Below the pieces are notes generated by a model, which worked only from the letters and a program-made list of their open reading frames with translations, ran no database searches and had not been told where the DNA came from. From assembly GCF_025148125.1 (NCBI RefSeq), contig NZ_CP102267.1, positions 3,730,501-3,794,500 of the forward strand: DNA of 64,000 nt, read 5' to 3'. Both the position numbers and the translations under genes were made by a program. Below are positions 13,305 through 34,535 of this stretch, piece by piece (the first letter of the stretch is position 1; the number at the start of each line of letters is the position of its first letter). Source of the stretch: Blautia wexlerae DSM 19850. GTDB taxonomy: Bacteria > Bacillota > Clostridia > Lachnospirales > Lachnospiraceae.

Positions 13305-13394
13305 TATGATCACCGCCTATCACTCCTCTAAACCTTAGCACTTCTACAACAGCCGCTCATTCTATATCATATTTTTGCTTATTTATTGCTACTT

Positions 13395-16271: not shown

Positions 16272-16627
16272 TGGAAGTTTCTTCAGATTCAAGGTGCCAA
16301 TAACATGTAAATTTCCAGCCTGAGATGCTTTTAGGGCTATTTCGGGCTGGAAATTAAGGAAAATCCCTATTTTTCAAGGTTTTTTACAATCTGCCATTTT
16401 TTGAGTGTTACTTTTTCAGGAAGTTAAGGCTAATCACAACTAACACAATTGCCATAGCCCTAAGGTAATCAATCCACTTTTTTCTGTTGATTACCATATC
16501 ATTGTCATTATGCGCTGATATCATACAAACACTCCATAATATTCTTTACAATCGCTACTGCAATTTTTCAAACTCCAGCAGATGTATTCTTATAATTTTT
16601 CTAATAAATTCTAATCAACTGAGTTCC
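16272..16627 (-). pseudogene. Intergenic decay region with acyltransferase-3 N-terminal stub
   Basis: No intact gene in 356 bp. On the minus strand ATG 16497 to TAA 16408 encodes MVINRKKWIDYLRAMAIVLV followed by VISLNFLKK. This is the start of an acyltransferase-3 (OafA-like, membrane O-acetyltransferase) protein: a basic residue pair followed by YLRxxAIxLV and the first membrane helix. It stops after 29 codons. It probably marks a lost O-acetylation gene at the end of the EPS operon. A hairpin with stem AATTTCCAGCC/GGCTGGAAATT lies at about 16308-16352 and may end EPS transcripts. Confidence 0.5.
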
Positions 16628-17782: not shown

Positions 17783-17784
17783 AG

Positions 17785-18774: not shown

Positions 18775-18780
18775 TATAGA

Positions 18781-20193
18781 TTAACCCACCTTTCTTTTCA
18801 CAAACTTGTTGATAATTCCTCTCAGAATAGTGGTCCAATAATTGGCATAAATAATCATAGCAATTACTAGAAGTATAATCTGGATTGTTATGCCAACATA
18901 ATTATCAATAAACATTATTAGCGATGAACTTAGTAATAAAATAGTCCCCATGATGAATTCATTATTTTTAATATTAAAACGTATATACTTACGAGTATGA
19001 AAATATCTAAACAAGAATACAACAATATAACTAATACATGTAGCAATAGCAGCACCATATACTCGGAATTTTGGAATCAAAAGAAAATTCAAGCCAATGT
19101 TTACTACCGCTCCAATAGTTGCCGAAATTAAAAATCCTTTACTATCTTTATGAACATTATAAGTTGTTGACATAAACGTGCCTAACGTCAAATACACACA
19201 ACCAATCACTAAAAAAGGTGTATATTTCCAGGCAACATAATATGATTTCTCTACATAAATACTTAGAAATGGCTTCATAATTGTAATCAGACCAATTCCC
19301 ATTAGCATTGCTATTGAAATTAATGATTTAAAAACGCCATTATTATATTCACTCTCATCTTCGGCACCATTCTCCCTAATAGCGGAATATCCCCATGCTT
19401 GGTTAAAAATCCCTGTTAAAGTCGAAATGAGTGTTGGCAATTTATATGAAATTGCGTAAATACCATTAGCTGCACTTCCAACCATAGCTGTAACCATAAC
19501 TCGATCTGATGAATTCATAATCCACCACATAAACGTATTAGGAATTAAAAAAGCCGAAAAGCTCACCATTTCTTTCATTTTCGCTGTGTTTATTCTTGTT
19601 TTTGTATATCCTTTAAAACTTTTTCCAACTACCGCCGCATACACTGCAGTTACAATATTTGCAAAAATAAATGCAGAAATGTATCCACGAACTCCCCAAT
19701 CAAAAACAACCAAAAACAAAATGTTAAACAACGCTGATGTCAGAGTAAGAATTACACTTCCAATAGAATACTGAAGCAATAACTCTTTACCTCGTAAATC
19801 ATACAAAAATACAGTACTAGCACCAATTGAAACATTATATATAAAAATATATATGCAGTACTCTCTAATAGGTGCAAACAAACTATACACAGGAATAAGT
19901 AATACGCCTAAAATGATAGAGATTTCAAAAATTCTAATACCAATCTTTGTAATTACCGCTCTATCGGCATCCTTATCCAGACTAAACCTCATTATTGCTT
20001 CAGAAATGTTTAAAATTAAGACCGGTGCAATCACTGCGCATAATGTGGTGATAAGATCTGCCACTCCATACTCTTCAGTTCGTAAAACACTTGTATAAAG
20101 AGGTACCAAGAAGAAGGCAATAAATTTTGATCCAAAATTGCCTATTGTAAATATCAGCGTATTTTTTGCCAAATATCTATTTCGTGATTCCAC
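18781..20193 (-). CDS. Oligosaccharide flippase (Wzx/MATE-like, MVF superfamily)
   Basis: 470-residue membrane protein with about twelve to fourteen helices, starting RNRYLAKNTLIFTIGNFGSK, the usual start of Wzx flippases, and an EEYGVADLITTL motif after the first helix. It moves undecaprenyl-linked repeat units across the membrane. A GTG start is supported by GGAGGTAAGTGT. Presence of both Wzx- and Wzy-like proteins points to the Wzx/Wzy-dependent assembly route rather than an ABC export route. Confidence 0.88.
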   Translation of the reverse strand: MESRNRYLAKNTLIFTIGNFGSKFIAFFLVPLYTSVLRTEEYGVADLITTLCAVIAPVLILNISEAIMRFSLDKDADRAVITKIGIRIFEISIILGVLLIPVYSLFAPIREYCIYIFIYNVSIGASTVFLYDLRGKELLLQYSIGSVILTLTSALFNILFLVVFDWGVRGYISAFIFANIVTAVYAAVVGKSFKGYTKTRINTAKMKEMVSFSAFLIPNTFMWWIMNSSDRVMVTAMVGSAANGIYAISYKLPTLISTLTGIFNQAWGYSAIRENGAEDESEYNNGVFKSLISIAMLMGIGLITIMKPFLSIYVEKSYYVAWKYTPFLVIGCVYLTLGTFMSTTYNVHKDSKGFLISATIGAVVNIGLNFLLIPKFRVYGAAIATCISYIVVFLFRYFHTRKYIRFNIKNNEFIMGTILLLSSSLIMFIDNYVGITIQIILLVIAMIIYANYWTTILRGIINKFVKRKVG

Positions 20194-20216
20194 ACACTTA
20201 CCTCCTTATTCCCGTC

Positions 20217-21380
20217 TTACAAATTAATTTTTCCCTCAATTGCATCCAGTAGCAAACCAAGCGATTGCGTTCTTAAATCTTCTCTATATTCATTTACTCT
20301 CGTATAATCTATTCTCTTATGCAAATCCAAAGAGTCAATGTCATCTATTTTTACAAAGCGCTCTACTAACGCTTCATTACTTAATATGCTTATAAGACGT
20401 TCATCGTTTTTATACTGCCCATTATCCATATGAGTATTAAGTGTCAAAAATTCTTTATTAAAAATAATAGAGAATGCGGTACCGTGAAATGAATCTGTTA
20501 TTATAAAATCCGAATAGTAAATATAATTCAGAAAATCTTTAGGCCCTGTATGCTGTAAGTCAACTTTAACACCATTACGGCTATATTTAACAATTCTAAT
20601 CATATCCATTTGATTAGTAATCGTATATACCGGTAAGCCTAATTTTTCAGATACCTTTTTAGCTACTTGTATTCCTTCCATTTTTGTCCACATATTATAC
20701 AAGAATATGTAGCGCTCATCCTTAATTCTATCTCCAAGTAACGAAGTATACATCTCTTTGTCCAATAATAATGTTGGATCCAAGGTATTATAAATCTTCA
20801 TATTATAATTTAAAAATGAAGATAATTTCTCTACTCCGCTTTGTTCTCTAACCGAAATGAAATCATACTGCCTGAGCCATTTTTCAAGCCAATCTGCCGG
20901 AAATCTTTCATTCACCTGACCATCATTTACACTACAAGCATACGCAATCTTTTTACCATTAAAAGGAAATGGTAGAAAAAAAATAGGATCACAATCTACT
21001 ATGTTTGTATTCCAAACTTGATCACTTCCCGTAATTATCACATCATACTTATCCGCAATGCCTCTGAAATCCGAGTCGTAAAAATACATTTCTTTACTCA
21101 AATGTAAATTTTCTTTTCTAAAACACAAAAACTTATCTCTTTGCATAGATACTTTTCTTTTAAAAGAAAGAATTCTTTTAAGCTTCCTTTTAAATCCTTT
21201 AGCATCTTTTAAGCTTGTTTCATATAAATGCCTTAGTTCTTTGGGTTCGTAATCAATAATTTCAGAATCATACCCATTCATCTTCAAGGTATTCTGTAAA
21301 GCCCATGCTTGTAGAACAGACCCATAATTTATGGCCTTGTGAAAAGTTAATATTCCAATCTTGGCAGTCTTCTTATCCAT
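20217..21380 (-). CDS. Polysaccharide pyruvyl transferase family protein
   Basis: 387 residues. Family blocks are visible: TFHKAINYGSVLQAWALQNT near the N-terminus, DVIITGSDQVWN in the middle and FIITDSFHGTAFSIIFNKEF near the C-terminus (the conserved DSFHG). It should transfer pyruvate from phosphoenolpyruvate to a sugar as an acidic ketal, giving the EPS a negative charge. Some family members act in teichoic acid-like or secondary cell wall polymers, so EPS as target rests on its operon position. Confidence 0.85.
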   Translation of the reverse strand: MDKKTAKIGILTFHKAINYGSVLQAWALQNTLKMNGYDSEIIDYEPKELRHLYETSLKDAKGFKRKLKRILSFKRKVSMQRDKFLCFRKENLHLSKEMYFYDSDFRGIADKYDVIITGSDQVWNTNIVDCDPIFFLPFPFNGKKIAYACSVNDGQVNERFPADWLEKWLRQYDFISVREQSGVEKLSSFLNYNMKIYNTLDPTLLLDKEMYTSLLGDRIKDERYIFLYNMWTKMEGIQVAKKVSEKLGLPVYTITNQMDMIRIVKYSRNGVKVDLQHTGPKDFLNYIYYSDFIITDSFHGTAFSIIFNKEFLTLNTHMDNGQYKNDERLISILSNEALVERFVKIDDIDSLDLHKRIDYTRVNEYREDLRTQSLGLLLDAIEGKINL

Positions 21381-21395
21381 TCTTTCACCTTACTT

Positions 21396-22355
21396 CTAAA
21401 CTTTTAATCGTTTTTTTAATAAACAACATACAAAATTAAATAGATGGACCGAGATAGTGTACATATGGTACATAATCTTATACGTTCCACCAAATATTTG
21501 TCTAACTTCCTTTGAGCCTAATATAACATTTGAGGCATTTGCATATGTAGGATTACTTGGCTCATACGGGCAGTAAATACAATATTGTAATGCATCAGCA
21601 AATAACTCTTCTCTCACAAGTTTAGCCGCTTCATAATTATGTTCTATCAAAAAATTATACTGTTCAAATCTCTGCTCGAATTCATCAGTAACATGCTTTT
21701 TAGTGATCGTATGCGTAATACTGTTATCTGATTGATAGTAATAATACAATTTTGTTTCCAATAAACAGATTTGCGAAGCTCTATCAATAACTTTATAAGT
21801 AGTCGCTAAATCTTCATAAACTCTACCTTCTGGATACTTAATATCATTAAACAAACTTCTCTTGTAAAACTTGTTCCATGAAAAGTTTCCAATATTAGGG
21901 TCGGATAAAAGCCCCATGGCCTCATCTTTGTTTAACAGACGAGATACACTTTCCACAACACTACATTTAATCTGTTCACCGTCTTTAAACTTAGTAAACC
22001 CAAACATAACAATATCCGCTTTGTTTTTCACTGCACAATCATGTACTTTTTCACATAATTCATAATCAATATAATCATCACTATCAACAAAAAGAATCCA
22101 ATCACCAGTTGCATTAGATAATCCAACATTTCTTGCCTTAGATAATCCTCCATTCTTCTGGTGAATAACTTTGATTCTTGCATCATTTCTCATATATTCA
22201 TCGCATATTTCAGGGCACCTATCCGGAGAACCATCTTCTACTAATATTATTTCCAGATTTGAATATGTTTGATTAATTATTGATTGTATGCAACGTGCTA
22301 TAGTATCTTCCACTTTGTAAGCAGGCATAATAATACTTATCTTGTCTTTTCCCAT
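21396..22355 (-). CDS. Glycosyltransferase family 2
   Basis: 319 residues with a canonical GT2 core: SIIMPAYKVEDTIARCIQSI, ILVEDGSPDRCPEICDEYMR, the GGLSKARNVGLSNATGDWIL block, FVDSDDYIDYE (DxD) and a later WNKFYKRSLF and VYEDLATTYKVI, as seen in EpsJ/CpsJ-like enzymes. A membrane-interacting C-terminus (HLFNFVCCLLKKR) suggests peripheral membrane attachment. Donor and acceptor unknown. Confidence 0.88.
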   Translation of the reverse strand: MGKDKISIIMPAYKVEDTIARCIQSIINQTYSNLEIILVEDGSPDRCPEICDEYMRNDARIKVIHQKNGGLSKARNVGLSNATGDWILFVDSDDYIDYELCEKVHDCAVKNKADIVMFGFTKFKDGEQIKCSVVESVSRLLNKDEAMGLLSDPNIGNFSWNKFYKRSLFNDIKYPEGRVYEDLATTYKVIDRASQICLLETKLYYYYQSDNSITHTITKKHVTDEFEQRFEQYNFLIEHNYEAAKLVREELFADALQYCIYCPYEPSNPTYANASNVILGSKEVRQIFGGTYKIMYHMYTISVHLFNFVCCLLKKRLKV

Positions 22356-22394
22356 AAAAATCCCCTCTTCATTTTTCTAATATACAATTTTTTA

Positions 22395-23498
22395 TCATTC
22401 TAATGCATTAAAATACTTTGACATTTTTCCAACCTCTACATCAATATCAAAACATTTGGCTCTAAACCTTTCCTTTATAATAGAGTGTTCACATCTCACT
22501 TCTCCAATTGACTGTTCAATTGCATGACACCACTCCTCTACAGAGTTATCTAAACTAATTCTTATAACATTTGAATTAATAAGTCCTTCATCATTAATTG
22601 CATTTGTAGACGCAATAATAGGAATTCCATTTGCTTGAGCTTCTAATCCAACAATACTTAGCCCCTCAAATCTTGAAGGAAAAACAAACACATCAAATGC
22701 ACTCAGCCAACCGCCAATATCTTTTTGCTCTCCTGCAAAGATTACATACTTTTCTAATCCCATTTGAGAAATCTCTCTAACAAGCATCTCCTTATCAGGA
22801 CCGGAACCAATTAAAACCAATCTATATGATTCATCCTTTTGAATTAACTGATACATAATTACCAACAATTGACTTTGATTTTTTTGAAAATGCAGCCTTC
22901 CTATATGACCTATTACTTTGCATCCGTCTAAATCATATTCTTTACGAATATTTTCGCGCTTTAATTGATCAAATTCATACTTGTCAACATTTATAGCATT
23001 GTTTATAACTGTAGATGGGAGCTTATTTGGATAGAACCATTTTGCCGCACCGCTAGAACATGCCCAAAACTCTGTAGCTATTTTACCAATAAAATACTTA
23101 TTCTTCGTGTGTAATATTTTCTGTAATAATCCACCCATATTACTTGAATTGTGGCTGTGAACAATAATATGTTTAATCCCAGATTTTCTAGCAATTTTTA
23201 AGAAATCCACATTCATCAATGAATTTAAATTTGCCCAAACTGCTACGTATTCTTTAGAATACGTCTTGAAAAAATCTTTTAGTTGTTTTTTATGTAAAAA
23301 CATATTTTTACTTTTAGGAACAACATAGTACACATTTCCCTGTTTTTCAATCTCTTCCGAATAAGCAATCTTATTTTCTGACGGGCATAAAAAATCAAAT
23401 TGTATACCTGTCATATTCTTGTTTAAACAGTAATTTATAAGAAAAGACTCTACACCACCTGGCGTACTAGTCATTCCAATAACTAGAATTTTTTTCAT
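22395..23498 (-). CDS. Glycosyltransferase family 4 (GT-B fold)
   Basis: 367 residues. The N-terminal Rossmann start is KILVIGMTSTPGGVESFLIN, resembling EpsF/CapM-type enzymes. The C-terminal donor domain has VIGHIGRLHFQKNQSQLL and the retaining E-x7-E element in FPSRFEGLSIVGLEAQANG. It probably adds one sugar of the EPS repeat unit with retention of configuration. Start ATG at 23498; the upstream GT2 gene ends 14 bases before it. Confidence 0.88.
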   Translation of the reverse strand: MKKILVIGMTSTPGGVESFLINYCLNKNMTGIQFDFLCPSENKIAYSEEIEKQGNVYYVVPKSKNMFLHKKQLKDFFKTYSKEYVAVWANLNSLMNVDFLKIARKSGIKHIIVHSHNSSNMGGLLQKILHTKNKYFIGKIATEFWACSSGAAKWFYPNKLPSTVINNAINVDKYEFDQLKRENIRKEYDLDGCKVIGHIGRLHFQKNQSQLLVIMYQLIQKDESYRLVLIGSGPDKEMLVREISQMGLEKYVIFAGEQKDIGGWLSAFDVFVFPSRFEGLSIVGLEAQANGIPIIASTNAINDEGLINSNVIRISLDNSVEEWCHAIEQSIGEVRCEHSIIKERFRAKCFDIDVEVGKMSKYFNALE

Positions 23499-23511
23499 AG
23501 GTAATCTCCGA

Positions 23512-24477
23512 TCATATGCATACCCATATTAGGAGAATCTTTCTGCTAACTGACATTTTCCAAAACAATAACTTCTTAAAATTTTGACGCACTATTTTTT
23601 TCATTTTGGCAAACTCACAAGTAAGATTCACGTCTGCCTTGTCATATCCGCATAGTTTCATTTTTCCTAATATTGTAAAATTTGCTCTTGCATAATTTAT
23701 CTGTGAATACTCTGCAAGTTCAGGCCATTTCTTTTTTACATCTTTATGAATTCTCTCAAAGGCATCAATGTACTCTAAGTCTCTCTTAGATACGCTTTTT
23801 CTTGTTACACCTTCCTGGTTCTGAAAATAATTATATAATTTCTTATCAATTTTCACGACTTTCTCGCAATGAGTATAAAAATAATACGACGCCATCACAT
23901 CTTCAGAAATCGTACCTTCAACAAATTTAAATTGATCTAGAACTTTTCTTTTAATTAGCTTAGTATAAATACCATAATTACTTTCCCCGCCATGTATTCT
24001 AAAAAAATTTTCAAGCGTTTGTGTTTGCGATTGCAAATAGACTGATACATTCTTTTCTCCGTCGGTAGGAATTTCCTTTCTTCCATCTGTTCGAGTTGTT
24101 TTACATTCAGCGATATCAGCTTCTGGATATTTCTTGATTGCGTTAATTAATGTTTCATACATATTTAACTGAATCCAATCATCGCTATCAACGAATCCAA
24201 TCAATTCACCATTTGCAATTGCCAATCCAGCATTTCTTGCAGCACCCGCACCTGCGTTCTTTTGATGTATAACAACAACTCTATCATCCTTTGCTTTCCA
24301 TTCATCGCACATGCTTGAAGATCTGTCTTTAGAACCGTCATCAATTAATATAACTTCTATGTTCTTGTATGTTTGATTTAAGACTGATTCCATACATCTT
24401 CCTAAATACTGCTCGACATTATACACAGGAATAATGATACTTATCTTAGGATCTGGACCTAATATTGATTTGTTCAT
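23512..24477 (-). CDS. Glycosyltransferase family 2
   Basis: 321 residues with SIIIPVYNVEQYLGRCMESV, ILIDDGSKDRSSSMCDEWKA, AGAGAARNAGLAIANGELIG and FVDSDDWIQLNMYE (DxD) in the usual order, then ISEDVMASYYFYTHCEKVV in the acceptor half. It is one of three GT2 enzymes in the operon; together with two GT4 domains this suggests a repeat unit of roughly five sugars plus the primed one (inference). A hydrophobic extreme C-terminus follows a basic stretch. Confidence 0.88.
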   Translation of the reverse strand: MNKSILGPDPKISIIIPVYNVEQYLGRCMESVLNQTYKNIEVILIDDGSKDRSSSMCDEWKAKDDRVVVIHQKNAGAGAARNAGLAIANGELIGFVDSDDWIQLNMYETLINAIKKYPEADIAECKTTRTDGRKEIPTDGEKNVSVYLQSQTQTLENFFRIHGGESNYGIYTKLIKRKVLDQFKFVEGTISEDVMASYYFYTHCEKVVKIDKKLYNYFQNQEGVTRKSVSKRDLEYIDAFERIHKDVKKKWPELAEYSQINYARANFTILGKMKLCGYDKADVNLTCEFAKMKKIVRQNFKKLLFWKMSVSRKILLIWVCI

Positions 24478-24520
24478 AAATATGTTCGCTCCTATTCTAG
24501 AACATCAACTCTATCATCAA

Positions 24521-27500
24521 TTATTTTTTCAAAGATGAAATCAAGTCAATTATCTCCATATACGAAGTTTTTCTATCAAACTTCATTTCCGCTAGCAGTC
24601 GTGCATTATTTCCGTATGATACGCGCATTTCTTCGGACGAGAACATCTTATTAATAGCGTTTGCCAATTCATTTGGGATCTCAGCCGGAACATTTATTCC
24701 AACAACATTATCATTTATTAATGTACAGCACTCTTTATTCTCTAATGTATTAATCATTGGTTTTCCTGCTGCAAGATAATCGCCAACCTTGTTTACAATA
24801 CTTTGAGCAACACCTTTAGCAAACGAATTAATAGTAACATCAGATTTACTTAAATACGCAGCCATGGCAGGATGTGTGACATATCCAAGGAACTCAATAT
24901 TATTGCAATTCAATTTTTTAGCTAATTCTTCGCATTCTACTCTCAACGGACCATCACCTAGGATTTTAAATTTAATTCTCTCATTATCTTTTATCTGACT
25001 TGCAGCTCTAACGACATTATCAATTGCATAACTATGACCAATTGAACCTGTATATATGACCCAAAACTCATTTTCTGGCTTAATAACTTTAGTAATATTG
25101 TTGGCAACTTCTTCATCAAAAGCATTAATATCGGTACCAACATATACTGTTCTATTAGGAATTGATCTTACATTATTTTTCCAAGCTCTAGATGTATACT
25201 CTTCAGATGTACCAACAACTCCATTAGCGTATGCATATGTTTTTTCAGCATCGAAATAATATGGCTTCGTTAGTATTTGGAACGGCTTGCTGAATAACGT
25301 TGACATAGCTTCAGGCCAAAGGTCTTCAATGTCAACTATAAACGGTACATTATGTTTTTTGCAAATTGCTCCCACAGTCTTTCCAATATTATTAGGTGGA
25401 ATCGAACAATAAACGGCTTCATAATCCAGTATTCTTTTCTCCAATTCTTTCGAAACTTTTGCAGAAAACATAATATTGCTGACTTCTCTGCGAGGATCAA
25501 TATTTTTCTTGTAAGATATGCAATCTATATAAATTACATTCAAATCTGTACTAATTGATTTATCTCTCTGTTTTTTCTCATGATGCTCATAGCTACTAGT
25601 ATAAACATCTACATCATAACCATTATCTTTAAAAGTTCTAGCTATTGAATAAAAACGTGATGGACCTGCTTCTTCCGGCAGCCAAAAATACTGTGATGAG
25701 ACAATTGCAATTTTCTTGTTTTTCATTTTCATATTTCCTTCTGTTTTCTGTATGCTTTCTTTTAAGGATGTGGTCTGATAAACAATGCCTTCATAAATAC
25801 TCATTTCATGAGCATAAGTAGAATTTCCGAATGCTTTATTAACGAGCCCACCGATCTTACCAGGCACCTTGCCGCCAAGTAAGACAGCTGGCTTCATAAT
25901 TCCACCAATCAATCTAACCTTTTTACCGGTTACTTCACCGATCTCTTTAACCATCTCACTGGTTTTAGTCCACTCACCATTCTGTGGAATAAGAACAATT
26001 GCATTCTCCTTAACTTCCTTAACCATCATAATCTGGCAAAGAAACTCACATAGATTATCTATATGAAGCATGCTACGTTCATTATCTACATTTGGAAATA
26101 CAGGAAGTTTCTTTGCAAACTTGGCTAAAGTAGGATAATTACCTTTGCTGCCCTTTCCGTAAATCATAGGTGGTCTCAAAACAAAAACATGGAACGAATC
26201 ATCTGCTAATTCTCGTACCGCTGCATCTGCTTGTAGTTTAGAATCACCATAGAAATTTGCAGCAAAAGGAACAGTGTGTTCATCTACAACCTTGCTCTTA
26301 CCATAAGGAGCAGAATCTCCATATACAATCATAGATGACATGAATACGAAATTTTTCACTCCTTCAGCTTTTGCCTTTTCACAAACTTCTACTGCAAGAT
26401 CAGTATTAACTGCGTAGTATTTTGCTTTTGTGGCCTCATCCACGTTTCCAACATCTGCATGAGCGATTCCAGCAACATGATAGATAATATCGTAGGATGA
26501 AAAATTCTTCTCTCTCCACGATCCATCAATCATATCTACCGCATCTACTTTGAGTGCTGGATAATGCTCTGTTGCATAAGTTTGGAATGCTTCTCCAATA
26601 TAAGAACCTGCGCCTGTAATAAGAACTTTCTTCTCAGTTTCTATATCTACTTCAACTGGCTCACCAAAGCCAATGTGGCCAATCAACTCTTCAGAAGTCA
26701 TTCCGTCTGTATAGTGACGACCAACAGTCTGCTTTTTCATCTCGCCAGTTCCTCCTTCGACAACAGAATTATCGCCACCGAAAACATGTAAACTTCCTAA
26801 GAATACCTTAGCATCCATAAGGGGACCCATCTTCTGAGCGTACTCGCCATCAAGTTTAGCCTTCACCGGAATCTCAATTTCATCACGTCCATTAATCTGT
26901 GCCCATCCGGTCAGACCTGGTTTGATGTCATTAGCGCCATATTTATCTCTCTCAGCTGTCAGAAAGTCCTGATTCCAAAGACCTGGACGCGGACCAATCA
27001 CAGACATATTACCAATGAAGATATCCCAAATTTGAGGAAGCTCATCTAAACTGTGTGCTCTGATAAACTTGCCAACCTTTGTTATGTACTGTTCCGGATT
27101 TTCCAACATATGTGTTGGCTTATCGTGTGGTGTGCACATTTTCATACTTCTAAACTTATGCAATTTGAAATATCTCTTGTTTTCTCCCACTCGCTTCTGT
27201 GTGAACAGAACAGGACCTGGATCATCAATTTTGATAGCTATTGAAATTCCTAATAATAATGGACTCAGAACTACAAGTCCGCCAAAAGATAGAACTACAT
27301 CAATTCCTCTCTTAACATACTTTTCATATACACCCGCCTTATGACCAGTTACACCCACTGCTTCAAGATGCCCCCTCATACCATCGGCATTTTCTTTATC
27401 ATTTTCATCCTCAACAAAGATTACCTTTTTGCCCTCCATTGGATTCTTCTGATCTGGCTCATTTTTATACTGACTATTATCTTTTTTTACTTTAGCCACA

Positions 27501-27568
27501 ACAGCTGTAGTTACAAATGCGGTTCCAAGTGTCGCTGCAACAATTCCAACAACTTTTTTCCAGCTCAT
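24521..27568 (-). CDS. Three-domain fusion: sugar-phosphate transferase, SDR epimerase/dehydratase and GT4 glycosyltransferase
   Basis: 1015 residues. Residues 5-27 are a membrane helix. Residues 80-270 are a WcaJ/PglC-type initiating phosphoglycosyl transferase (membrane re-entrant segment near 88-110, VLFTQKRVGENKRYFKLHKF, GNMSVIGPRPGL, GLTGWAQINGRD). Residues 313-600 are an SDR with TGAGSYIG (318-325), SSM at 411-413 and the YGDSK motif (Y440, K444). Residues 613-1015 are a full-length WbuB-like GT4 (YFWLPEEAGPSRFYSIARTF, later KVGDYLAAGKPMI). The first step (lipid priming), nucleotide-sugar modification and the next transfer would be on one chain. At 25732 an internal ATG with AGAAGGAAAT before it could start the GT4 alone, so separate synthesis is possible. 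Confidence 0.85.
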   Translation of the reverse strand: MSWKKVVGIVAATLGTAFVTTAVVAKVKKDNSQYKNEPDQKNPMEGKKVIFVEDENDKENADGMRGHLEAVGVTGHKAGVYEKYVKRGIDVVLSFGGLVVLSPLLLGISIAIKIDDPGPVLFTQKRVGENKRYFKLHKFRSMKMCTPHDKPTHMLENPEQYITKVGKFIRAHSLDELPQIWDIFIGNMSVIGPRPGLWNQDFLTAERDKYGANDIKPGLTGWAQINGRDEIEIPVKAKLDGEYAQKMGPLMDAKVFLGSLHVFGGDNSVVEGGTGEMKKQTVGRHYTDGMTSEELIGHIGFGEPVEVDIETEKKVLITGAGSYIGEAFQTYATEHYPALKVDAVDMIDGSWREKNFSSYDIIYHVAGIAHADVGNVDEATKAKYYAVNTDLAVEVCEKAKAEGVKNFVFMSSMIVYGDSAPYGKSKVVDEHTVPFAANFYGDSKLQADAAVRELADDSFHVFVLRPPMIYGKGSKGNYPTLAKFAKKLPVFPNVDNERSMLHIDNLCEFLCQIMMVKEVKENAIVLIPQNGEWTKTSEMVKEIGEVTGKKVRLIGGIMKPAVLLGGKVPGKIGGLVNKAFGNSTYAHEMSIYEGIVYQTTSLKESIQKTEGNMKMKNKKIAIVSSQYFWLPEEAGPSRFYSIARTFKDNGYDVDVYTSSYEHHEKKQRDKSISTDLNVIYIDCISYKKNIDPRREVSNIMFSAKVSKELEKRILDYEAVYCSIPPNNIGKTVGAICKKHNVPFIVDIEDLWPEAMSTLFSKPFQILTKPYYFDAEKTYAYANGVVGTSEEYTSRAWKNNVRSIPNRTVYVGTDINAFDEEVANNITKVIKPENEFWVIYTGSIGHSYAIDNVVRAASQIKDNERIKFKILGDGPLRVECEELAKKLNCNNIEFLGYVTHPAMAAYLSKSDVTINSFAKGVAQSIVNKVGDYLAAGKPMINTLENKECCTLINDNVVGINVPAEIPNELANAINKMFSSEEMRVSYGNNARLLAEMKFDRKTSYMEIIDLISSLKK

Positions 27569-27625
27569 AATCCTTAAACTCTCCTTAAAAGAAACTTTAC
27601 TAAACTATTTCTTTTTTCATCTAAT

Positions 27626-28096
27626 CTATTTAAATACTGTGCAGCTCTGAACTTTTGTACTTTCTGGTACTTTAGCTCCCACTGCCACAACGGCGTTACA
27701 ATCAATCTGACAAAACTTACCGACAACTGCATTATGGTTAACAACAGCACCGGCACAAATGAAGCTACCATCATTAACAACAGCATTTGAGTTAACAACT
27801 GTATTCGCTTCAATCACACAACCAGTGCCAATAACAGCACTCACACTAACACAAGCCGTGGGGTGAATAAGCGTAACCAAGTTCTTCATTCTTCTTAATA
27901 TCTTCTGTTTGATTTCTGGATTACCAATAGCCACAATTGAGCCATCGTACTCTCCCTCAATTTTCTCAAGATTCTCAACCTTCCCCACTGCAAGTGGGCT
28001 GTTGTCATCTAGAAAATCAACTTTATATCCTTGAGCTTCTGCCATTTCTCTAACCAATAGACCATAGCCTCCAGCTCCAACTATTAATAGTTTCAT
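27626..28096 (-). CDS. NeuD-family sugar O-acyltransferase
   Basis: 156 residues. The N-terminal Rossmann-like PglD_N domain (KLLIVGAGGYGLLVREMAEA) is followed by left-handed beta-helix hexapeptide repeats (HPTACVSVSAVIGTGCVIEA, NSNAVVNDGSFICAGAVVNH). Such enzymes acetylate an amino- or hydroxy-sugar nucleotide. The chain is about 50 residues shorter than typical NeuD/PglD, ending in KVQSCTVFK, so the last coils are missing or shortened. It stands between a degenerate second copy (28190-28543) and the fusion gene. With the 4,6-dehydratase upstream it may belong to a modified-sugar route. Confidence 0.8.
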   Translation of the reverse strand: MKLLIVGAGGYGLLVREMAEAQGYKVDFLDDNSPLAVGKVENLEKIEGEYDGSIVAIGNPEIKQKILRRMKNLVTLIHPTACVSVSAVIGTGCVIEANTVVNSNAVVNDGSFICAGAVVNHNAVVGKFCQIDCNAVVAVGAKVPESTKVQSCTVFK

Positions 28097-28189
28097 TTTT
28101 CTTTTGCACTCCTCAACAAAGCAATTATGCCCCTATCAAACATCCGATAGTGTTGCCTATCACATCGTCTGTTTCAAATAGCCCTCTAC

Positions 28190-28543
28190 TAAAAACAAAC
28201 GCTTATAATGCCCCCTGCCATAATGGTTGAATGTACATTCACAATTGCTTTAGGCTCAATAATAACTCCTTCCTGTATTTCGCAAGTTCTACTAACATAA
28301 GCGGATGGATGTATCAGAACAGGTATAGTAAATCCTATCTCTTTGATTTTTCTAATAACTGTTCTCTTAATTTGTTATTGCCAATACCTATAAAGGCATC
28401 TGCATATTCTTCTTTAAAATTTTCTAAATCAGAAATTCTTTCAATAGCTTTCTCACTATTATCGTATATCCACAATCCTCTGTGACTTCTGAAACAACCT
28501 GTCCATGACCGCCCGCACCGATTATTAAAAGTTTTCTTTTCAT
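28190..28543 (-). pseudogene. Degenerate second NeuD-like acyltransferase
   Basis: Starts with ATG at 28543 and MKRKLLIIGAGGHGQVVSEV, the same fold start as the neighbouring intact gene. The homologous reading then jumps frame to DNSEKAIERISDLENFKEEY and again to EIGFTIPVLIHPSAYVSRTC. At least two frameshifts and loss of the C-terminal repeats make it non-functional. The remaining DNA down to 28097 has no open frame. The intact copy probably replaced it. Confidence 0.75.
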
Positions 28544-28566
28544 AAACATTCCCTATCATTTTTCTT

Positions 28567-30528
28567 TTACGCCGGATGATACGTAGCCACAACCTTCTGT
28601 ACTCTCTCCTTCACATCATCCTTATTCTTATAAGCCGCCTCCAGCAACCCATCCAGTTCTTCCAAAAACTCCTCCACATCAAACGGAATCGGGCACCCAA
28701 TATGTATCAGATCATTCTTCGTCTTCTTCAACCCTTCCTCCGCCATCAGTTTCTCCTCATACAGCTTCTCTCCAGGTCTCAATCCGCTATAAACAATCTT
28801 AATATCCACATCCGGCTTATACCCCGACAACCTGATCAGATTCCTAGCCAACGTATCAATCTTCACCGGCTCGCCCATATCCAGCACGAATATCTCTCCG
28901 CCCTTCGCATAGGTTCCTGCCAGCAGCACCAGACTCACCGCCTCCGGAATCGTCATAAAATACCTGATAATATCTGGATGTGTAACCGTAACCGGTCCAC
29001 CTGCCTCAATCTGTTTCTTAAAGAGCGGAATAACCGATCCGTTACTTCCTAACACATTTCCAAACCGGACTGCCACGAATTCCGTCTGGGCGTTCTTTAA
29101 TCCTTCTGCCACTTTCGGATCCACGATCACGTCATCCATACCATGAGTGAAGAGCTGCGGAATCTCATTCGCTTTTCCTTCTTTAATCTTATAGTCAAAA
29201 GCCTGAATGATCATTTCACACAAACGCTTGGATGCTCCCATAATGTTGGTTGGGTTTACCGCTTTATCTGTGCTGATCAGCACAAATCTCTTACATCCAT
29301 GTGCCATCGCTGCATATGCAGTCTTATAAGTTCCCATCGCATTATTTTTAATTGCTTCACATGGACTGTCTTCCATAAGAGGTACATGCTTATGCGCCGC
29401 TGCGTGATATACGATCTCCGGTCTGTATTCATCGAATACTTTGAATATCTTTCTGCTGTCACGAACGGATCCAATAATCGTATCCAGTTTCAGATCCGGA
29501 TATTTCTTCCGTAATTCCTGCTGAATGTCATACGCGTTGTTTTCATAAATATCGAACAAAATCAGATGTTTCGGATTGTGTGCCGCGATCTGTCTTGCAA
29601 GCTCAGATCCGATAGAACCAACACCTGTAACCAGAACCACTTTTCCTGTGATATACCGGAATACTTCATCCATATCCGTCTTAATCGGATCTCTTCCAAG
29701 CAAGTCTTCAATCTGAACAGGTTTCATCTTGCTTACGGATACTTCACCGGTATAAAGCTGATACATTCCCGGAAGGTTCATCAGTTCGCAACCTGTCTCA
29801 TTGCAGATTCTGAGGATTTCTCTTTTATCCTCCGGTTTTGCGCTTGGAATGGCGACATAAATTTTCTCAATTCCAAACTTCGCTACCGCTTCCATGATAT
29901 TCTCTCTACCGCCGAATACCGGAACATCATCTATGTATCTGCCCCATTTATTTGGATTATCATCAATGAAGCAGTAAACTCTCTCACTTGTCTCTTTGGC
30001 ATGTTTAATATCGCGAAAGATCATCTGACCTGCACTTCCTGCGCCGATCAGCATGACTCTCTTCTCATATGCTGCGTCTGTATTTCTCTTTCCCCTAATC
30101 AGCAGGATAAAGCGGTATGCAAACCGGATTCCCAGTGTCAGACAGAACTGAATGATAATACCGAACGCATAATAGGAAATCGGCATTCTGTGTATACATG
30201 CATTCACTACAATTAAATGAACGACTCCTGTAAATACCGTTCCCATAATCACACGGATCAGTTCTGCATAACTTGCGAAACGCCAGATACTCTTATAAAG
30301 ACGCAGAAACCAGAATACCACTACGCAGAATATTGCATAAATCCATGCTGTGTGAAAATATGTCTGCAGATAGTCTTTCTGGATTCCGCCAAATTTACAG
30401 TCAAACCGAATCCACAGTGCTGCAAAATATGACACCAGAATCGCTGTAAAGTCATATACCATCAATAACAGGGATACGATTTCCCAGTGTTCCAGTTTTT
30501 TCTTCATCTTTGTCATACTGTTACTCAT
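28567..30528 (-). CDS. Nucleoside-diphosphate sugar 4,6-dehydratase (CapD/PglF-like, membrane-bound)
   Basis: 653 residues. Four N-terminal membrane helices (about 15-120) are followed by a nucleotide-binding CoA-like domain (RVMLIGAGSAGQMIFRDIKH) and the SDR catalytic domain with VLVTGVGSIGSELARQIAAH, FVLISTDKAVNPTNIMGASK and RFGNVLGSNGSVIPLFKKQI. Family members convert UDP-GlcNAc to the 4-keto-6-deoxy intermediate, the entry to bacillosamine, FucNAc or QuiNAc sugars. Cotranscribed with the acyltransferase genes downstream and 37 bp after the helicase gene. GGAGAAATACAA before the ATG supports the start. Confidence 0.9.
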   Translation of the reverse strand: MSNSMTKMKKKLEHWEIVSLLLMVYDFTAILVSYFAALWIRFDCKFGGIQKDYLQTYFHTAWIYAIFCVVVFWFLRLYKSIWRFASYAELIRVIMGTVFTGVVHLIVVNACIHRMPISYYAFGIIIQFCLTLGIRFAYRFILLIRGKRNTDAAYEKRVMLIGAGSAGQMIFRDIKHAKETSERVYCFIDDNPNKWGRYIDDVPVFGGRENIMEAVAKFGIEKIYVAIPSAKPEDKREILRICNETGCELMNLPGMYQLYTGEVSVSKMKPVQIEDLLGRDPIKTDMDEVFRYITGKVVLVTGVGSIGSELARQIAAHNPKHLILFDIYENNAYDIQQELRKKYPDLKLDTIIGSVRDSRKIFKVFDEYRPEIVYHAAAHKHVPLMEDSPCEAIKNNAMGTYKTAYAAMAHGCKRFVLISTDKAVNPTNIMGASKRLCEMIIQAFDYKIKEGKANEIPQLFTHGMDDVIVDPKVAEGLKNAQTEFVAVRFGNVLGSNGSVIPLFKKQIEAGGPVTVTHPDIIRYFMTIPEAVSLVLLAGTYAKGGEIFVLDMGEPVKIDTLARNLIRLSGYKPDVDIKIVYSGLRPGEKLYEEKLMAEEGLKKTKNDLIHIGCPIPFDVEEFLEELDGLLEAAYKNKDDVKERVQKVVATYHPA

Positions 30529-30565
30529 TTGTATTTCTCCATATTTTTCTTTTTATTTGTCCTTT

Positions 30566-32650
30566 TTATTTCCAGTCCATCCCAATGCTGTCCAACTGCC
30601 TAATCCTATGTTCATCCAACACCATCCCGCTCCCCTCAGGATGTTTCCTCTTCGCCCGTATATTCGAGATCCACCTCCCCAGCTTCACTCCATTCACACT
30701 ATACGAAACCGGCACATTCAGATTCCCATATTCCTCATAGTAATCTTTCGCCAGCGAATACTTCTCATTCCACTGTCTGACAGTCTTCTTCTCCGTCTTA
30801 AAACCAATCTCCCTAAGCCGTTCCAACTGTCTCTCTTCCAATGAACTCCGACATGCATTTTTCTCACCAAACTGGCTCCCAATCTCCGCGAGCCATCTTC
30901 CCAGCGGCACCCCATTCTCCGTCACATACTTCACCGGAACCTCCAACTCCCCATGCTCCAGATAATACCTTTGTGCCTCCCGGAAGTACTCTTCCCATTT
31001 CTCCCCATTCCGGTCCCAAATCATCCCTAACTTCTCTAACTCTCCCTGCTGTTCCTTCGTCAGCGCCTGATCCAGTCCCTTATTCTTCACCTTCGTCCTC
31101 AAATTACAGACCCATCTCCCAAGCCTGAACCCATTCTCCGTCACATATCTAGCCTTAACATCCAGATTCCCATGCTCCTCAAAATAAGCCTGCAATTCTC
31201 TCAACGCCTCATTCCAGCTCTGGTCCTTACTGTCCCAGACCATCCCGATCTCATCCAGCTTCCTGACCTTCTCCTCACTCAGATTCCCGTTCACCGAACC
31301 CGCACGGACCCTGCGCTGCGTCTGAATCCAGCTTCCAAGCGTAAGCCCTGTCTGCGTCAGATAACTCTTCGGAACTTTCAGATTCCCTTTCTCCCGGTAA
31401 TACTGCCTTGCGGCAATATAATAGGTTTCCCAGGCGGAACTTAAATTCGTCTGCAGTTTCTGGAAAAGCATCCTGCAGTCCTTCGTCTCATCCGTAATGT
31501 GGAAACGCTCACTAAAGCGGAACCCCTTCCCATACGTCGTCGGAAACAGCACAAATGCTTCTTCCATTTCTTTCTTCAGACAGTCAATACAAGAAAGGCT
31601 GTCAAAATTATTAACCAGGTCAAAAATAACCGGTGTCTTCCCGCTGCCCGCTGACAATGCACGCCCGATCTGCTGAAGATAAATGATCGGCGACACCGTC
31701 GGACGCAGAAGAATCACACCGTCCACATCATCCACATGAACCCCTTCATTGAGCATATCAATGCAGAAAAGAAGCTTCAGATGTGCACTGTTATCCTTCT
31801 TAAATTCCCTGAATTCTCTGTCTGTAGCAGTATCGTTATAAAACGCTGTATAGATCCGCGGCTCACGGTCTACCCGGCGAAACCACGTACTGACCTGCCC
31901 TTTCATTTCGTCCATATGTTCTTTACCGGAACAAAAGACGATATATTTTCCATTTTTCTTTTCCATGTGCTTCTCAAACACAATGTCCAGCCCCTCTGCC
32001 TGTTCCAGTGCGCGGCGCAGCTGCTCAAGCAGTTTCTGGTTCTCTGTGATGAGGCCCTGATTCGATAACGCCTGGATTCTTTTCTTTAACTGATCCAGTT
32101 CTTTCTTATATGAATACATGGCTATCACATATTTCGGTTCCGGGAGTATTCCCCGGACGATAGCTTCTCCGAGTGTCATCTCGGATGCGATCTTTCCATC
32201 AAAAATCTCCTCTGCCATATTTCTCTGGTTGTCCAGATAGCGGATATTGGTCGCAGACAGCCCGAGTCTCTTCGCATTTGGACAGGCGTTCAGAAGCTTC
32301 CTGACGCTTTTGCCCCATTCTGCGGCACCACAGCGATGAAATTCATCCAGGATGATGTAATCCGGATGCAGGGTTTCAATGCTGTCTTCGTTCTTCATCA
32401 GACGGCTGTAGGACATGAATTGGATGTTATCGAATTCCATTCCGAGGTTCTCCAGCTGTGTCTGATAGATATATTCACTTGGTGAAAGCCATAGGAATTT
32501 CTCTGATGGATGTTCCTCTGCCAGCTTAAATGCGATCAGGGATTTCCCTGTGCCTGTAGGGTGGATGACTGCTGCCATTTTCTCCCGCTCAAGCATGGCG
32601 GTAACTGAGTTATATGCTTCCTGATTGTGTTTGAAAAGATGTATGCTCAT
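30566..32650 (-). CDS. DEAD/DEAH-box helicase with four C-terminal helicase-associated (HA) repeats
   Basis: 694 residues. Superfamily 2 motor: Walker A PTGTGKS (31-37), DEFH box (102-105), LGLSATN, and a second RecA-like domain with QIGRALSAGSGKTPVIFD. From about residue 420 to the end there are four HA-domain repeats of about 65-70 residues, each built around W...YY.E.GNL.VP..Y...G..LGRW and ending in a LD.IGM.W-like turn. HA repeats are small helical domains thought to bind nucleic acid. It is the first gene under the invertible promoter and precedes all EPS genes; no known role in EPS assembly exists. A role in transcription of the long operon or in defence is possible. GGAGGAATACCGAA supports the start. 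Confidence 0.87.
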   Translation of the reverse strand: MSIHLFKHNQEAYNSVTAMLEREKMAAVIHPTGTGKSLIAFKLAEEHPSEKFLWLSPSEYIYQTQLENLGMEFDNIQFMSYSRLMKNEDSIETLHPDYIILDEFHRCGAAEWGKSVRKLLNACPNAKRLGLSATNIRYLDNQRNMAEEIFDGKIASEMTLGEAIVRGILPEPKYVIAMYSYKKELDQLKKRIQALSNQGLITENQKLLEQLRRALEQAEGLDIVFEKHMEKKNGKYIVFCSGKEHMDEMKGQVSTWFRRVDREPRIYTAFYNDTATDREFREFKKDNSAHLKLLFCIDMLNEGVHVDDVDGVILLRPTVSPIIYLQQIGRALSAGSGKTPVIFDLVNNFDSLSCIDCLKKEMEEAFVLFPTTYGKGFRFSERFHITDETKDCRMLFQKLQTNLSSAWETYYIAARQYYREKGNLKVPKSYLTQTGLTLGSWIQTQRRVRAGSVNGNLSEEKVRKLDEIGMVWDSKDQSWNEALRELQAYFEEHGNLDVKARYVTENGFRLGRWVCNLRTKVKNKGLDQALTKEQQGELEKLGMIWDRNGEKWEEYFREAQRYYLEHGELEVPVKYVTENGVPLGRWLAEIGSQFGEKNACRSSLEERQLERLREIGFKTEKKTVRQWNEKYSLAKDYYEEYGNLNVPVSYSVNGVKLGRWISNIRAKRKHPEGSGMVLDEHRIRQLDSIGMDWK

Positions 32651-32726
32651 TTCGGTATTCCTCCAAAGTACACAAAAAGAGGAATTCAGATTTCGCAGAT
32701 TGTTTTAATCTGCGAAATGGGCACAT
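32610..32726 (-). other. Possible leader peptide overlapping the inverted repeat and helicase start
   Basis: A 38-codon frame from ATG 32726, with GGGGAGG nine bases upstream (32736-32742), reads through the whole left inverted repeat and 41 bases into the helicase gene in another frame. It lies within the mRNA expected from the outward promoter. Its translation would pass through the palindrome hairpin and end after the helicase start, so it could couple or attenuate translation. No homologue is recognised; this may be chance. Confidence 0.3.
32688..32724 (+). repeat. Left inverted repeat (37 bp) of the invertible segment
   Basis: Begins AGATTTCGCAGATTGTTTTA and ends GAAATGGGCAC. It is the exact reverse complement of 34113-34149. 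The inner part ATTTCGCAGATT-GTTTT-AATCTGCGAAAT is itself a palindrome with 12-bp arms, as expected for a site bound by a pair of tyrosine recombinase monomers with the GTTTT centre as possible crossover region. No T run follows, so it is not a terminator. Confidence 0.9.
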
Positions 32727-32770
32727 ACGCGCCAACCTCCCCAATTTTATTAAATTTCTTATCAAATCAC

Positions 32771-32806
32771 TGCTAATATAATATGCTGAATAAGTCATTT
32801 TGTCAA
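32771..32806 (-). promoter_or_regulatory. Outward promoter of the switch, reading into the helicase-EPS operon
   Basis: On the minus strand TTGACA (32801-32806) and TATTAT (32778-32783) are separated by exactly 17 bp, close to the sigma-70/SigA consensus; start of RNA expected near 32771. The transcript would cross the left inverted repeat and reach the helicase start at 32650 with no terminator between. No comparably good promoter is seen elsewhere upstream of the EPS operon. Confidence 0.8.
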
Positions 32807-32951
32807 TAAATGGCGATTTATTTAGTTCATTATAACATAAACTGACCAATTTATTTAGTGCTTTTTGTAAGAAAATCAATCTGACTGCTGGAAAGTATCT
32901 CCATTACGGGTCAGAATCGTGGTCAGGAGCCCTAGAAAGGAGTTTTTTATT

Positions 32952-34088
32952 TTGGCAAGACGAGGAGAAAACATACGAAAAAGAAGTGACGGCAGATGGG
33001 AAGGCCGATATCTGATCCATATAAATGGAAGCAAAAAATATCGTTCCGTATATGCCCCTTCTTATAATGAAGTAAAACAGAAACTCTTTAACAGCAAGAA
33101 AGAATCTGAGATTACTCTGCTCTCCCAAAAAGAGCAGACAGCTCCCCTAAACGCCAGTGCTGATATGAGTCTTGATGAAATCGGTCAGTTGTGGCTTATT
33201 TATATTAAGGATAATCGCAAGTACTCCACCTACAGAAAATATGCCAACATCTATGATATGCATATCCAGGATATTTTTGGCAGTCTGACAGCAGACGAAA
33301 TCAGCCTGGAAATCATAGAGAAAGCCCTGCCAAAGGAGATGTCCGCCAGTCTATATAAAAGTATCTACTGTGTACTGAATCAGATTTTATCTTATGGAAA
33401 CCGATACTGCGGCACTCCGAAAATTCATTTAAAAACAGAAAAGCTGCGGACAGTTCCCAAACCTGTGCAGACAATAAACGCTACGGACCAGCAGAAGCTA
33501 TGCCGCTATCTGCTCTCAGATCTTGATTCATGCAAGCTTGGCATTCTGATATGCCTGTATATGGGACTGAGACTCGGGGAAATCTGTGCCTTAAAATGGG
33601 AAGATATCGATTTCCAGAGAAAAACGATTCATATTAACAGGACTGTCCAAAGAATTCAGGTCGGGCAGGGGGATCAGAAAACGATTCTGTATGAAGGACC
33701 GCCCAAAACGCTCTGCTCTGTCCGTGAGATCCCGATTCCGGAATTTCTCTTTCCACTTCTTCTCTCTTGTAAGGATGAGGGGGGTTATGTGTTGAATAAA
33801 TTTTCCCCGATGGAACCACGTACTTACCAGTATAAGTTTTATTCTTATCTGAATAAAGCATATATAAAGAAGTCTCACTTTCACGCACTGCGCCATACAT
33901 TTGCGACAAACTGTATCAGCAATGGGGCTGATGTCAAGAGTGTCAGCGAAATGCTTGGCCATTCTAATGTAAATATCACTTTGAATAAATATGTCCATCC
34001 ATCTATGGATACCAAGCGGAACATTCTGGATTCGCTTTCTTCTATCTCATCTATAAATGGTCAGATCAGTGGTCGGATCATTTCTTAA
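32952..34088 (+). CDS. Tyrosine recombinase (site-specific integrase) inside the invertible segment
   Basis: 378 residues from a TTG at 32952 preceded by AAAGGAG; the frame is open further to a GTG at 32919 without a ribosome site. An N-terminal arm-binding-like domain (RRGENIRKRSDGRWEGRY) and a core-binding SAM-like domain (about 70-150) are followed by the catalytic domain with Arg207 (GLRLGE), His311/Arg314 (HALRHTFAT), His337 (LGHSN) and the nucleophile Tyr347 (NKYVHP). All catalytic residues are present. The gene lies between two perfect inverted repeats, so the obvious job is inversion of this segment rather than integration; no excisionase or phage genes are near. Confidence 0.88.
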   Translation: MARRGENIRKRSDGRWEGRYLIHINGSKKYRSVYAPSYNEVKQKLFNSKKESEITLLSQKEQTAPLNASADMSLDEIGQLWLIYIKDNRKYSTYRKYANIYDMHIQDIFGSLTADEISLEIIEKALPKEMSASLYKSIYCVLNQILSYGNRYCGTPKIHLKTEKLRTVPKPVQTINATDQQKLCRYLLSDLDSCKLGILICLYMGLRLGEICALKWEDIDFQRKTIHINRTVQRIQVGQGDQKTILYEGPPKTLCSVREIPIPEFLFPLLLSCKDEGGYVLNKFSPMEPRTYQYKFYSYLNKAYIKKSHFHALRHTFATNCISNGADVKSVSEMLGHSNVNITLNKYVHPSMDTKRNILDSLSSISSINGQISGRIIS

Positions 34089-34112
34089 TCTTTGATCTCA
34101 TGCACGTTTCCG

Positions 34113-34149
34113 GTGCCCATTTCGCAGATTAAAACAATCTGCGAAATCT
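34113..34149 (-). repeat. Right inverted repeat (37 bp) of the invertible segment
   Basis: Exact reverse complement of 32688-32724, starting GTGCCCATTTCGCAGATTAA 25 bp after the recombinase stop. Homology stops abruptly on both sides, which fits recombination sites rather than an old duplication. Confidence 0.9.
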
Positions 34150-34163
34150 CTGTACGTGAGTAG

Positions 34164-34201
34164 TCCATCCGGCGTTTTTTAGATGCGCGGATGGATTTTT
34201 T
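34164..34201 (+). terminator. Terminator just outside the switch
   Basis: Stem TCCATCCG/CGGATGGA followed by six T residues. It is placed 15 bp right of the right inverted repeat. It would end recombinase transcripts now and would stop the outward promoter if the segment were inverted. A second hairpin, ACCCGCT/AGCGGGT at 34339-34385 with T residues after it, lies further on. Confidence 0.8.
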
Positions 34202-34535
34202 CTCTGTTGTTATAGAACTATTTGTTCTTTTTATTATATTATACTCTGCTCTTTCACGCAAGTAAAATATCAGACAGTTATCGTTCTATCGTTCTTGCCA
34301 TGGACATGCTTTCTAAAATATCTCTGTATAAATAAAATACCCGCTACAAAAGATATTATACATATCTGTCCGCAGCGGGTGTTTTATAAATTTTCGAAAA
34401 TCACATCGGATCATCCGGATGATTGTCGATTTATGTTTGAAATCAAAGCAAAAATATCACATTATTTGATAATATTGTTTGAATATATTTTGAAATAAGT
34501 ATATACTAATAGAAAATGAATTTGGAGGGATAATT
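34202..34535 (+). promoter_or_regulatory. Gap with second hairpin and RloA promoter
   Basis: No gene. The bidirectional hairpin ACCCGCT/AGCGGGT is at 34339-34380. A likely promoter for the following pair is TTTGAA 34478-34483, an 18-bp spacer and TATACT 34502-34507, followed by TTTGGAGGGATAATT before the RloA ATG. Confidence 0.55.

Follow-up and report, generated by a model that had tools for sequence, protein, structure and literature searches.

The segment at positions 32688-34149 of the window, by which we mean the whole 64,000-nucleotide stretch of Blautia wexlerae DSM 19850 DNA that was analysed, is very probably a self-contained promoter inverton that inverts itself. An earlier note on this DNA had proposed that sites, enzyme and promoter form one ON/OFF unit here; they are found together as one unit, and this unit is reversed in relatives. 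Its features and those of the adjoining operon, in window coordinates, are as follows.

16628..30528, minus strand: polysaccharide genes (Polysacc_synt_2, PglD-like, a sugar transferase/epimerase/GT fusion, plus others)
30566..32650, minus strand: HA-domain superfamily-2 helicase, 694 aa, first operon gene, start 37 bp from the left repeat
32688..32724, plus strand: left inverted repeat, identical to the right copy (37/37 bp)
32690-32718, plus strand: left core site (arm ATTTCGCAGATT 32690-32701, spacer GTTTT 32702-32706, arm AATCTGCGAAAT 32707-32718)
32778..32806, minus strand: outward promoter TTGACA-N17-TATTAT, between the left repeat and the recombinase gene, directed left toward the helicase gene
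32908..32925, plus strand: left direct-repeat pair GGGTCAGAATCGTGGTCA, 12-bp period, candidate arm-type recombinase-binding site
32952..34088, plus strand: tyrosine recombinase, 378 aa, entirely within the invertible segment
34058..34075, plus strand: right direct-repeat pair TGGTCAGATCAGTGGTCG, within the recombinase gene at its 3' end and on the strand of the left pair
34113..34149, minus strand: right inverted repeat, reverse complement of the left repeat, identical
34119-34147, minus strand: right core site (spacer AAAAC 34131-34135 on the plus strand)
34162..34202, plus strand: intrinsic terminator just beyond the right repeat (hairpin -22.6 kcal/mol, z -4.15, followed by a T run)

Recombination sites and operon

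The earlier claim of perfect 37-bp inverted repeats around a 1462-bp segment (both repeats included) is borne out at every base, the distance between the arms being 1388 bp. A scan of the window seeded on 14-base exact matches found six inverted-repeat pairs of at least 22 bp with arms no more than 5 kb apart, and only 32688-32724/34113-34149 is perfect; the other five are 89-95% identical and are located at IS elements. Both repeat arms are palindromic, reading ATTTCGCAGATT-GTTTT-AATCTGCGAAAT as a lox-like 12-5-12 site, and the two spacers are oppositely directed, which is the geometry of inversion. When the 4.69-Mb genome was searched for the core site (spacer RWWWY, at most two mismatches), the two window copies were the only ones found.

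Every gene of the operon to the left (16628-32650, about 16 kb) lies on the minus strand, and its polysaccharide genes also include five glycosyltransferase genes, a pyruvyl transferase, a flippase and a Wzy-like polymerase. The 16-kb surface-polysaccharide operon that the segment had been said to head is thus present, although its first gene is the HA-domain helicase and not a sugar gene. In the leader RNA of the operon (32651-32727, minus strand) the recombination site would fold as a hairpin, and a second hairpin spans the GGAGGAAU Shine-Dalgarno stretch of the helicase gene.

Several neighbouring features were seen in passing. An AAA ATPase gene and an RloB-like gene adjoin the cassette at 34536-36487 and form a candidate abortive-infection pair (PADLOC: AbiLi, E 4.7e-88; AbiLii, E 1.8e-17). 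Where the polysaccharide region ends, remote from the cassette, two IS copies encoding 426-aa DDE transposases with identical Pfam match statistics give 11569-16272 a composite-transposon-like appearance, with a UDP-galactopyranose mutase gene (13395-14513) between them. Further left, an IS4/5-type element (9688-10460; repeats 9605-9626 and 10474-10495) splits an asparagine synthase-type gene at 8280-11056 into a synthase part (8280-9647) and a glutaminase part (10478-11056) on the same strand.

Recombinase

The protein encoded in the segment matches PF00589 (E 5.5e-26) and PF14659 (E 2.7e-5) and carries R, K, H, R, H and Y at 33570, 33705, 33882, 33891, 33960 and 33990, residues whose catalytic roles were matched to Tn1549 Int. 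In an alignment of 55 recombinase sequences the set R, K, H-x-x-R, H/W, Y is invariant or nearly so. The PF00589 match and the full catalytic set bear out the claim of a complete tyrosine recombinase within the segment, and the domain match rules out a serine-type (Hin-type) switch in the window. Chosen by inspection, the start codon is likely TTG 32952, with GAAAGGAG upstream, rather than GTG 32919. Comparison with the homologue of Blautia sp. MSJ-9 gives dN 0.17 and dS 3.4 (saturated), and the recombinase is under strong purifying selection. It is present once in its own genome, where its next relatives reach at most 47% identity over part of the length. The cassette holds no further sense-strand gene of 80 aa or more, the remaining ORFs being antisense.

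The AlphaFold2 model of the recombinase (mean pLDDT 83.7) has the Tn1549 integrase as its top structural matches. At its N-terminus a b-b-b-a unit of three strands and a long helix is predicted for residues 8-60; the solved Tn1549 chains begin at residue 82, past this unit, and the comparison with them covers the part that follows it.

A family of cassettes

Related loci were assembled from the window itself, 36 of 37 genus-search matches, 40 of 67 further family-search matches and 19 of 29 loci from a species-wide scan (of the remainder from the scan, two were the same as loci already counted and eight were weak), making 96 in all. Under a strict test that asked for repeats with at least 19 matching bases, no more than three mismatches and arms within 900 bp of the recombinase gene, 59 of the 96 loci passed, one duplicate having been dropped, against none of 528 control placements in the same loci. 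A repeat-bracketed recombinase peculiar to the window locus is thereby ruled out. The other 37 loci fail through contig ends, one duplicate, imperfect repeats or a true lack of repeats.

The two site copies of a cassette differ at 1 of 367 central positions versus 90 of 954 arm positions (p 2e-12), as counted over the 53 of 59 sites with a clear palindrome, where the exact 9-mer seed biases mildly toward this result. Among these 53 sites there are 41 different central heptamers. Identical centres within site pairs are the overlap-homology rule of tyrosine recombinases.

In a tree of 102 sequences the window recombinase falls in a group of 21 members, 18 of them bracketed (support 100/99), and nine further integrases encoded in the same genome fall outside this group. 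A single clade of repeat-bracketed recombinases is ruled out by 20 label changes on the tree, at least 14 of them forced by well-supported branches; bracketing may have been gained or lost repeatedly, or the pattern may be blurred by contig ends. The cassette reaches beyond Lachnospiraceae: in Enterococcus, repeat pairs enclose relatives of the recombinase at five of six plasmid loci, and in Ruminococcus albus 7 a repeat pair encloses one integrase on plasmid pRUMAL02. Another pRUMAL02 integrase adjoins a helicase-associated-domain gene, with no repeats detected. Searching IMG/VR with the site pattern returned no matches; the recombinase as query returned three loci, and the one tested (L255) has the repeat pair.

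By a rule of thumb under which the target is an outward gene no more than 350 bp away and present on just one side, 13 of the 59 cassettes are ON, the window among them, and 35 are OFF; nine are ambiguous and two have no target.

Mini-cassettes

We examined 1.5 kb upstream of 28 relatives of the helicase, taken from the genus and family searches, and found an inverted-repeat pair, a recombinase of the family or both at 20. Seven have a repeat pair with the recombinase inside, three have a recombinase with repeats not both within 1.5 kb, and ten have a repeat pair 303-916 bp apart that holds no recombinase; at five none was found, and three offered too little sequence. One such mini-cassette, of 412 bp, lies at an MSJ-9 locus whose helicase is 96% identical to that of the window; it has the same arms and is drawn ON, and its spacer is CTTTT as against GTTTT in the window. 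Coprococcus catus VPIC661 has a 424-bp mini-cassette with spacer ATTTT before its helicase, and elsewhere in the genome a recombinase 59-61% identical to that of the window, which stands alone by a single ATTTT-spacer site.

The direct-repeat pair is kept at both ends in six of the ten mini-cassettes. All five genomes that hold these six encode a relative of the recombinase elsewhere; across the genus, at a comparable threshold, 26 of 64 genomes do. On visual comparison, the recombinase locus and the mini-cassette have similar arms in three genomes (G325, G426, G361), and in G236 no site of this kind was seen. The recombinase is missing from two of 12 genomes checked, one of which (G315) carries a serine recombinase gene next to that of the helicase. 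Since mini-cassettes keep sites, promoter and repeats without a recombinase of their own, their sequences would imply action in trans.

Three helicase heads (L221, L232, L237) adjoin a serine recombinase gene (PF00239). Palindromic repeats were seen by eye in L232 and L237, where the helicase head gene may sit under a second type of inversion switch.

Promoter, terminator and direct repeats

The outward promoter that the earlier note had placed in the segment is present, but its match to consensus is not significant on its own (six promoter-like sites in the stretch versus 7.0 expected); what stands is that its place and direction recur in related cassettes. Promoters were scored by matches to TTGACA/TATAAT, with 0.5 added for a 17-bp spacer. 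For a promoter that points outward from the 5' side of the recombinase gene, 40 of the 59 cassettes score at least 10 of 12, where 100 shuffles gave 5.3 on average and 10 at most, and 30 score at least 11, where the shuffles gave 0.4 on average and 2 at most. The remaining three pairings of side and direction yield 7, 0 and 1 among the 59 cassettes versus shuffle means of 4.1, 1.2 and 1.7, as expected by chance, and a consensus promoter for the recombinase gene does not stand out (7/59 versus a shuffle mean of 4.1). As the outward promoter alone rises above chance, the conserved promoter presumably serves the neighbouring gene and not the recombinase. We infer from its direction that the segment promoter would drive the operon and that the drawn orientation of the window cassette corresponds to operon ON.

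None of 200 shuffles gave a hairpin as stable as that of the terminator, which the pattern scan that listed the window promoters did not list. Its position suggests that it would end recombinase transcripts when the switch is ON and transcripts from the outward promoter when it is OFF. An Rfam search of the window gave no match.

Of the 59 cassettes, 40 have a direct-repeat pair of the form GTCA-N8-GTCA to the left of the recombinase gene, 32 have one at the 3' end of the gene, and 25 have both; none is found on the other strand, and no more than two appear in any of 50 shuffle sets. In the window the left pair is strict, and the second unit of the right pair ends in GTCG and so fails the strict pattern. 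The 3' pair overlaps the coding end of the recombinase gene (C termini of the IYGQxxGQ type), and its retention in the gene-less mini-cassettes argues for a DNA site. Their placement, together with the modelled fold, suggests that the pairs may be arm sites bound by the N-terminal domain of the recombinase.

Proposed mechanism

Recombinase made in the segment would bind both palindromic core sites, its N-terminal domain probably contacting the direct-repeat pairs just inside the ends, and would then synapse the sites and exchange strands across the spacer to invert 1462 bp. In the ON state, transcription from the outward promoter would cross the left repeat and enter the helicase gene and, with it, the polysaccharide operon. 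In the OFF state, the promoter would face the terminator beyond the right repeat, the operon would be deprived of this promoter and the recombinase would point at the operon. Because sites of the same kind lie at both ends and inversion only swaps their inner halves, so that substrate and product are equivalent, the reaction would be reversible with no need for a separate directionality factor. The enzyme presumably catalyses the inversion, which would leave the population heterogeneous.

We regard it as unlikely that inversion, though real, serves mainly self-control of the recombinase or chromosome architecture while another promoter drives the operon. When OFF, the recombinase itself reads toward the operon, and a second promoter could lie within the operon, for example in a 470-bp gap at 28097-28566; yet the outward promoter, and not a promoter of the recombinase gene, is the strongest conserved signal in the cassettes, and mini-cassettes that have lost the recombinase retain promoter and sites.

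Evidence for inversion

Three pairs of homologous loci carry the segment reversed with breakpoints at the repeats. The first was found by DNA search with window 32100-34600 and pairs the window with Blautia sp. MSJ-9, where the helicase and the segment lie on opposite strands. Homology turns at window 32688-32717, within the left repeat; the left flank is 77% identical and the right flank is not homologous, so this pair rests on one flank. The MSJ-9 promoter is nearly identical to that of the window and is directed away from the helicase, i.e. OFF. The second pair, G009 and G017 from the same genus as the window, has flanks 97.2 and 97.3% identical and a reversed segment 91.6% identical, with a 26-bp overlap that is the repeat. 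The third consists of paralogous loci within G429 (L158/L157), with flanks of 91.7 and 93.9% identity and a segment of 95.0%, again reversed. The earlier note had named a lack of related genomes with the segment reversed as evidence against a switch; the segment is reversed in MSJ-9 and in two further pairs, and both orientations are seen between related species and between paralogues. At L107/L108, we also observed that the inverted segment is less similar (91.6%) than the flanks (97%) between two close species.

A mobile element, such as a tyrosine-recombinase transposon or minimal integrative element whose independent insertions upstream of the operon account for the orientation differences, would share with the cassette its nearest solved relative, the integrase of the conjugative transposon Tn1549, and arm-like repeats near the ends, which we take to be usual in the Tn1549-type class. 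We consider this very improbable, since core sites that are complete and have inverted spacers point to inversion rather than excision, the outward promoter is conserved and the cassette leaves no room for a second gene besides antisense ORFs. Homologous loci moreover keep their position by the same head gene, with breakpoints in the repeats; inverted sites, kept flanks and reversal of the interior only rule out an integrative element or transposon as the main reading.

If the inverton exists in both orientations, contigs of segment length are to be expected, because assemblies break at both repeats when orientations coexist. Among the 120 recombinase homologues listed (of 7052), the longest contig is of segment length (1330-1515 bp) in 35 cases, compared with two of the 120 listed (of 2845) for a control, a 387-aa EPS protein of the same operon (Fisher p 7.5e-10 for the excess); repeats longer than small assembly k-mers could contribute to this peak. 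Strain-level reversal was also sought in Enterococcus raffinosus and not found: the two comparable strain pairs share the same orientation.

That the switch is decayed or locked, its repeats and recombinase persisting in a strain in which the segment no longer flips, would agree with the single orientation of the closed window genome, but it is the least credible alternative given perfect repeats, intact catalytic residues, purifying selection and a short-contig peak among the closest homologues (one protein with 97% identity, for example, has no contig longer than 1448 bp).

TnpB/Cas12f-like head genes in relatives

Among 44 first genes beside cassettes, 11 match Cas12f1-like_TNB and five the HA helicase. 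A profile finds 15 TnpB/Cas12f-like proteins, each encoded within 200 bp of a cassette in the place of the helicase, at the following loci.

L101, L103, L107, L108, L111, L114, L148, L149, L151, L155, L159-L162, L180: TnpB/Cas12f-like head genes

Alignment to 8hr5, a Cas12f1, places P and Y at the acidic positions of RuvC-II and RuvC-III in L108, and in the other subgroup these positions align with K and K; RuvC-I was judged by what we take to be its motif. The model of the L148 protein (pLDDT 84.1) matches Cas12f and TnpB structures with a best E of 3.2e-13. By alignment and model, the head proteins of these 15 relatives appear to combine a TnpB/Cas12f fold with loss of the RuvC catalytic residues, the combination that defines TldR.

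A conserved RNA-like region lies 3' of the TnpB-like gene and includes a long-range helix, 12 of whose 29 predicted pairs show compensatory changes among six sequences, of which two are almost the same; Rfam had no match for it. No convincing guide target was found in the fetched loci. The guessed guides of G017 and G009 gave 15 and 16 matches with up to two mismatches, versus 18 and 14 for the reversed control. One 15-base match common to both genomes, at a gene end before what is presumably an rpsO-like gene, was set aside as chance. A scan of 52 proteins encoded downstream of the TnpB-like heads found glycosyltransferases, sugar transferases and LicD among them.

As far as their sequences indicate, a regulator-like gene, either helicase or nuclease-dead TnpB-like protein, seems to head these operons, and the TnpB-like heads are possibly phase-variable RNA-guided regulators. 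Joining these threads, we offer a tentative reading, which may well not hold as a whole: through domestication, a Tn916/Tn1549-type integrase with its split arm sites would have become a portable ON/OFF cassette that inverts itself, stands before polysaccharide operons throughout Lachnospiraceae and extends to other Firmicutes; shed mini-cassettes would be flipped in trans and kept apart by their spacers; and the head gene would be a trans regulator, the TnpB-like protein and its RNA perhaps setting the expression of other loci by RNA guidance.

Comparison with known systems

Phase variation of polysaccharides is well known in Bacteroides and little described for gut Lachnospiraceae in the literature that we searched. 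The signature of a 1.5-kb one-piece switch (palindromic repeats, identical spacer, outward promoter, paired repeats) can be found in genomes and metagenomes, and the family provides orthogonal-spacer site pairs for one enzyme. The cassettes also lead to two unexpected head genes, one for the HA helicase and one for a nuclease-dead TnpB-like protein that is accompanied by a conserved RNA. Jiang 2019 is reportedly the key survey of gut invertible promoters; in the open literature searched, which excluded it, no description of the tyrosine-recombinase cassette was found.

The Mpi invertons of Bacteroides fragilis likewise have a promoter that inverts between inverted repeats ahead of a polysaccharide operon, and capsule operons of that species begin with a regulator-like gene, UpxY. 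UpxY of Bacteroides capsule loci is mentioned in PMC11892184, and invertible capsule promoters are already known from PMC5903667. There, Mpi is a serine recombinase encoded elsewhere that serves many loci; in contrast, the tyrosine recombinase of the window lies inside its segment and has one target in the genome. The earlier note had the recombinase usually outside the flipped DNA and here within it. It is within, but the arrangement is not peculiar to this locus, being known for the serine enzyme Hin, whose gene lies inside the inverted segment with an outward promoter (PMC5903667, PMC13418256). Salmonella Hin, a serine recombinase, differs from the window cassette in site and mechanism. The unusual part is the tyrosine-recombinase, arm-site-like version and its spread.

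In the fim switch of Escherichia coli and the RecV switches of C. difficile a tyrosine recombinase inverts a promoter or leader switch, and FimB and FimE are not known to have an N-terminal arm-binding domain. The recombinases of fim and of the RecV switches are encoded outside the switch, unlike that of the window. RecV is mentioned in PMC5903667.

Like TldRs, the 15 head proteins have a TnpB/Cas12f-like fold, altered RuvC residues and a downstream RNA-like region. The TldRs described in PMC13418256 control flagellin, whereas the TnpB-like heads lead polysaccharide operons behind a tyrosine-recombinase cassette.

Closest by sequence and fold among solved structures are the Tn916/Tn1549-type integrases, and in the cassette the N-terminal unit is predicted and paired direct repeats lie near both ends. 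Unlike Tn916 and Tn1549, the cassette has neither conjugation genes nor a second gene, and its core sites are inverted, not direct. Because the core sites are inverted and conjugation genes are lacking, the cassette is an inversion device and not an element that leaves.
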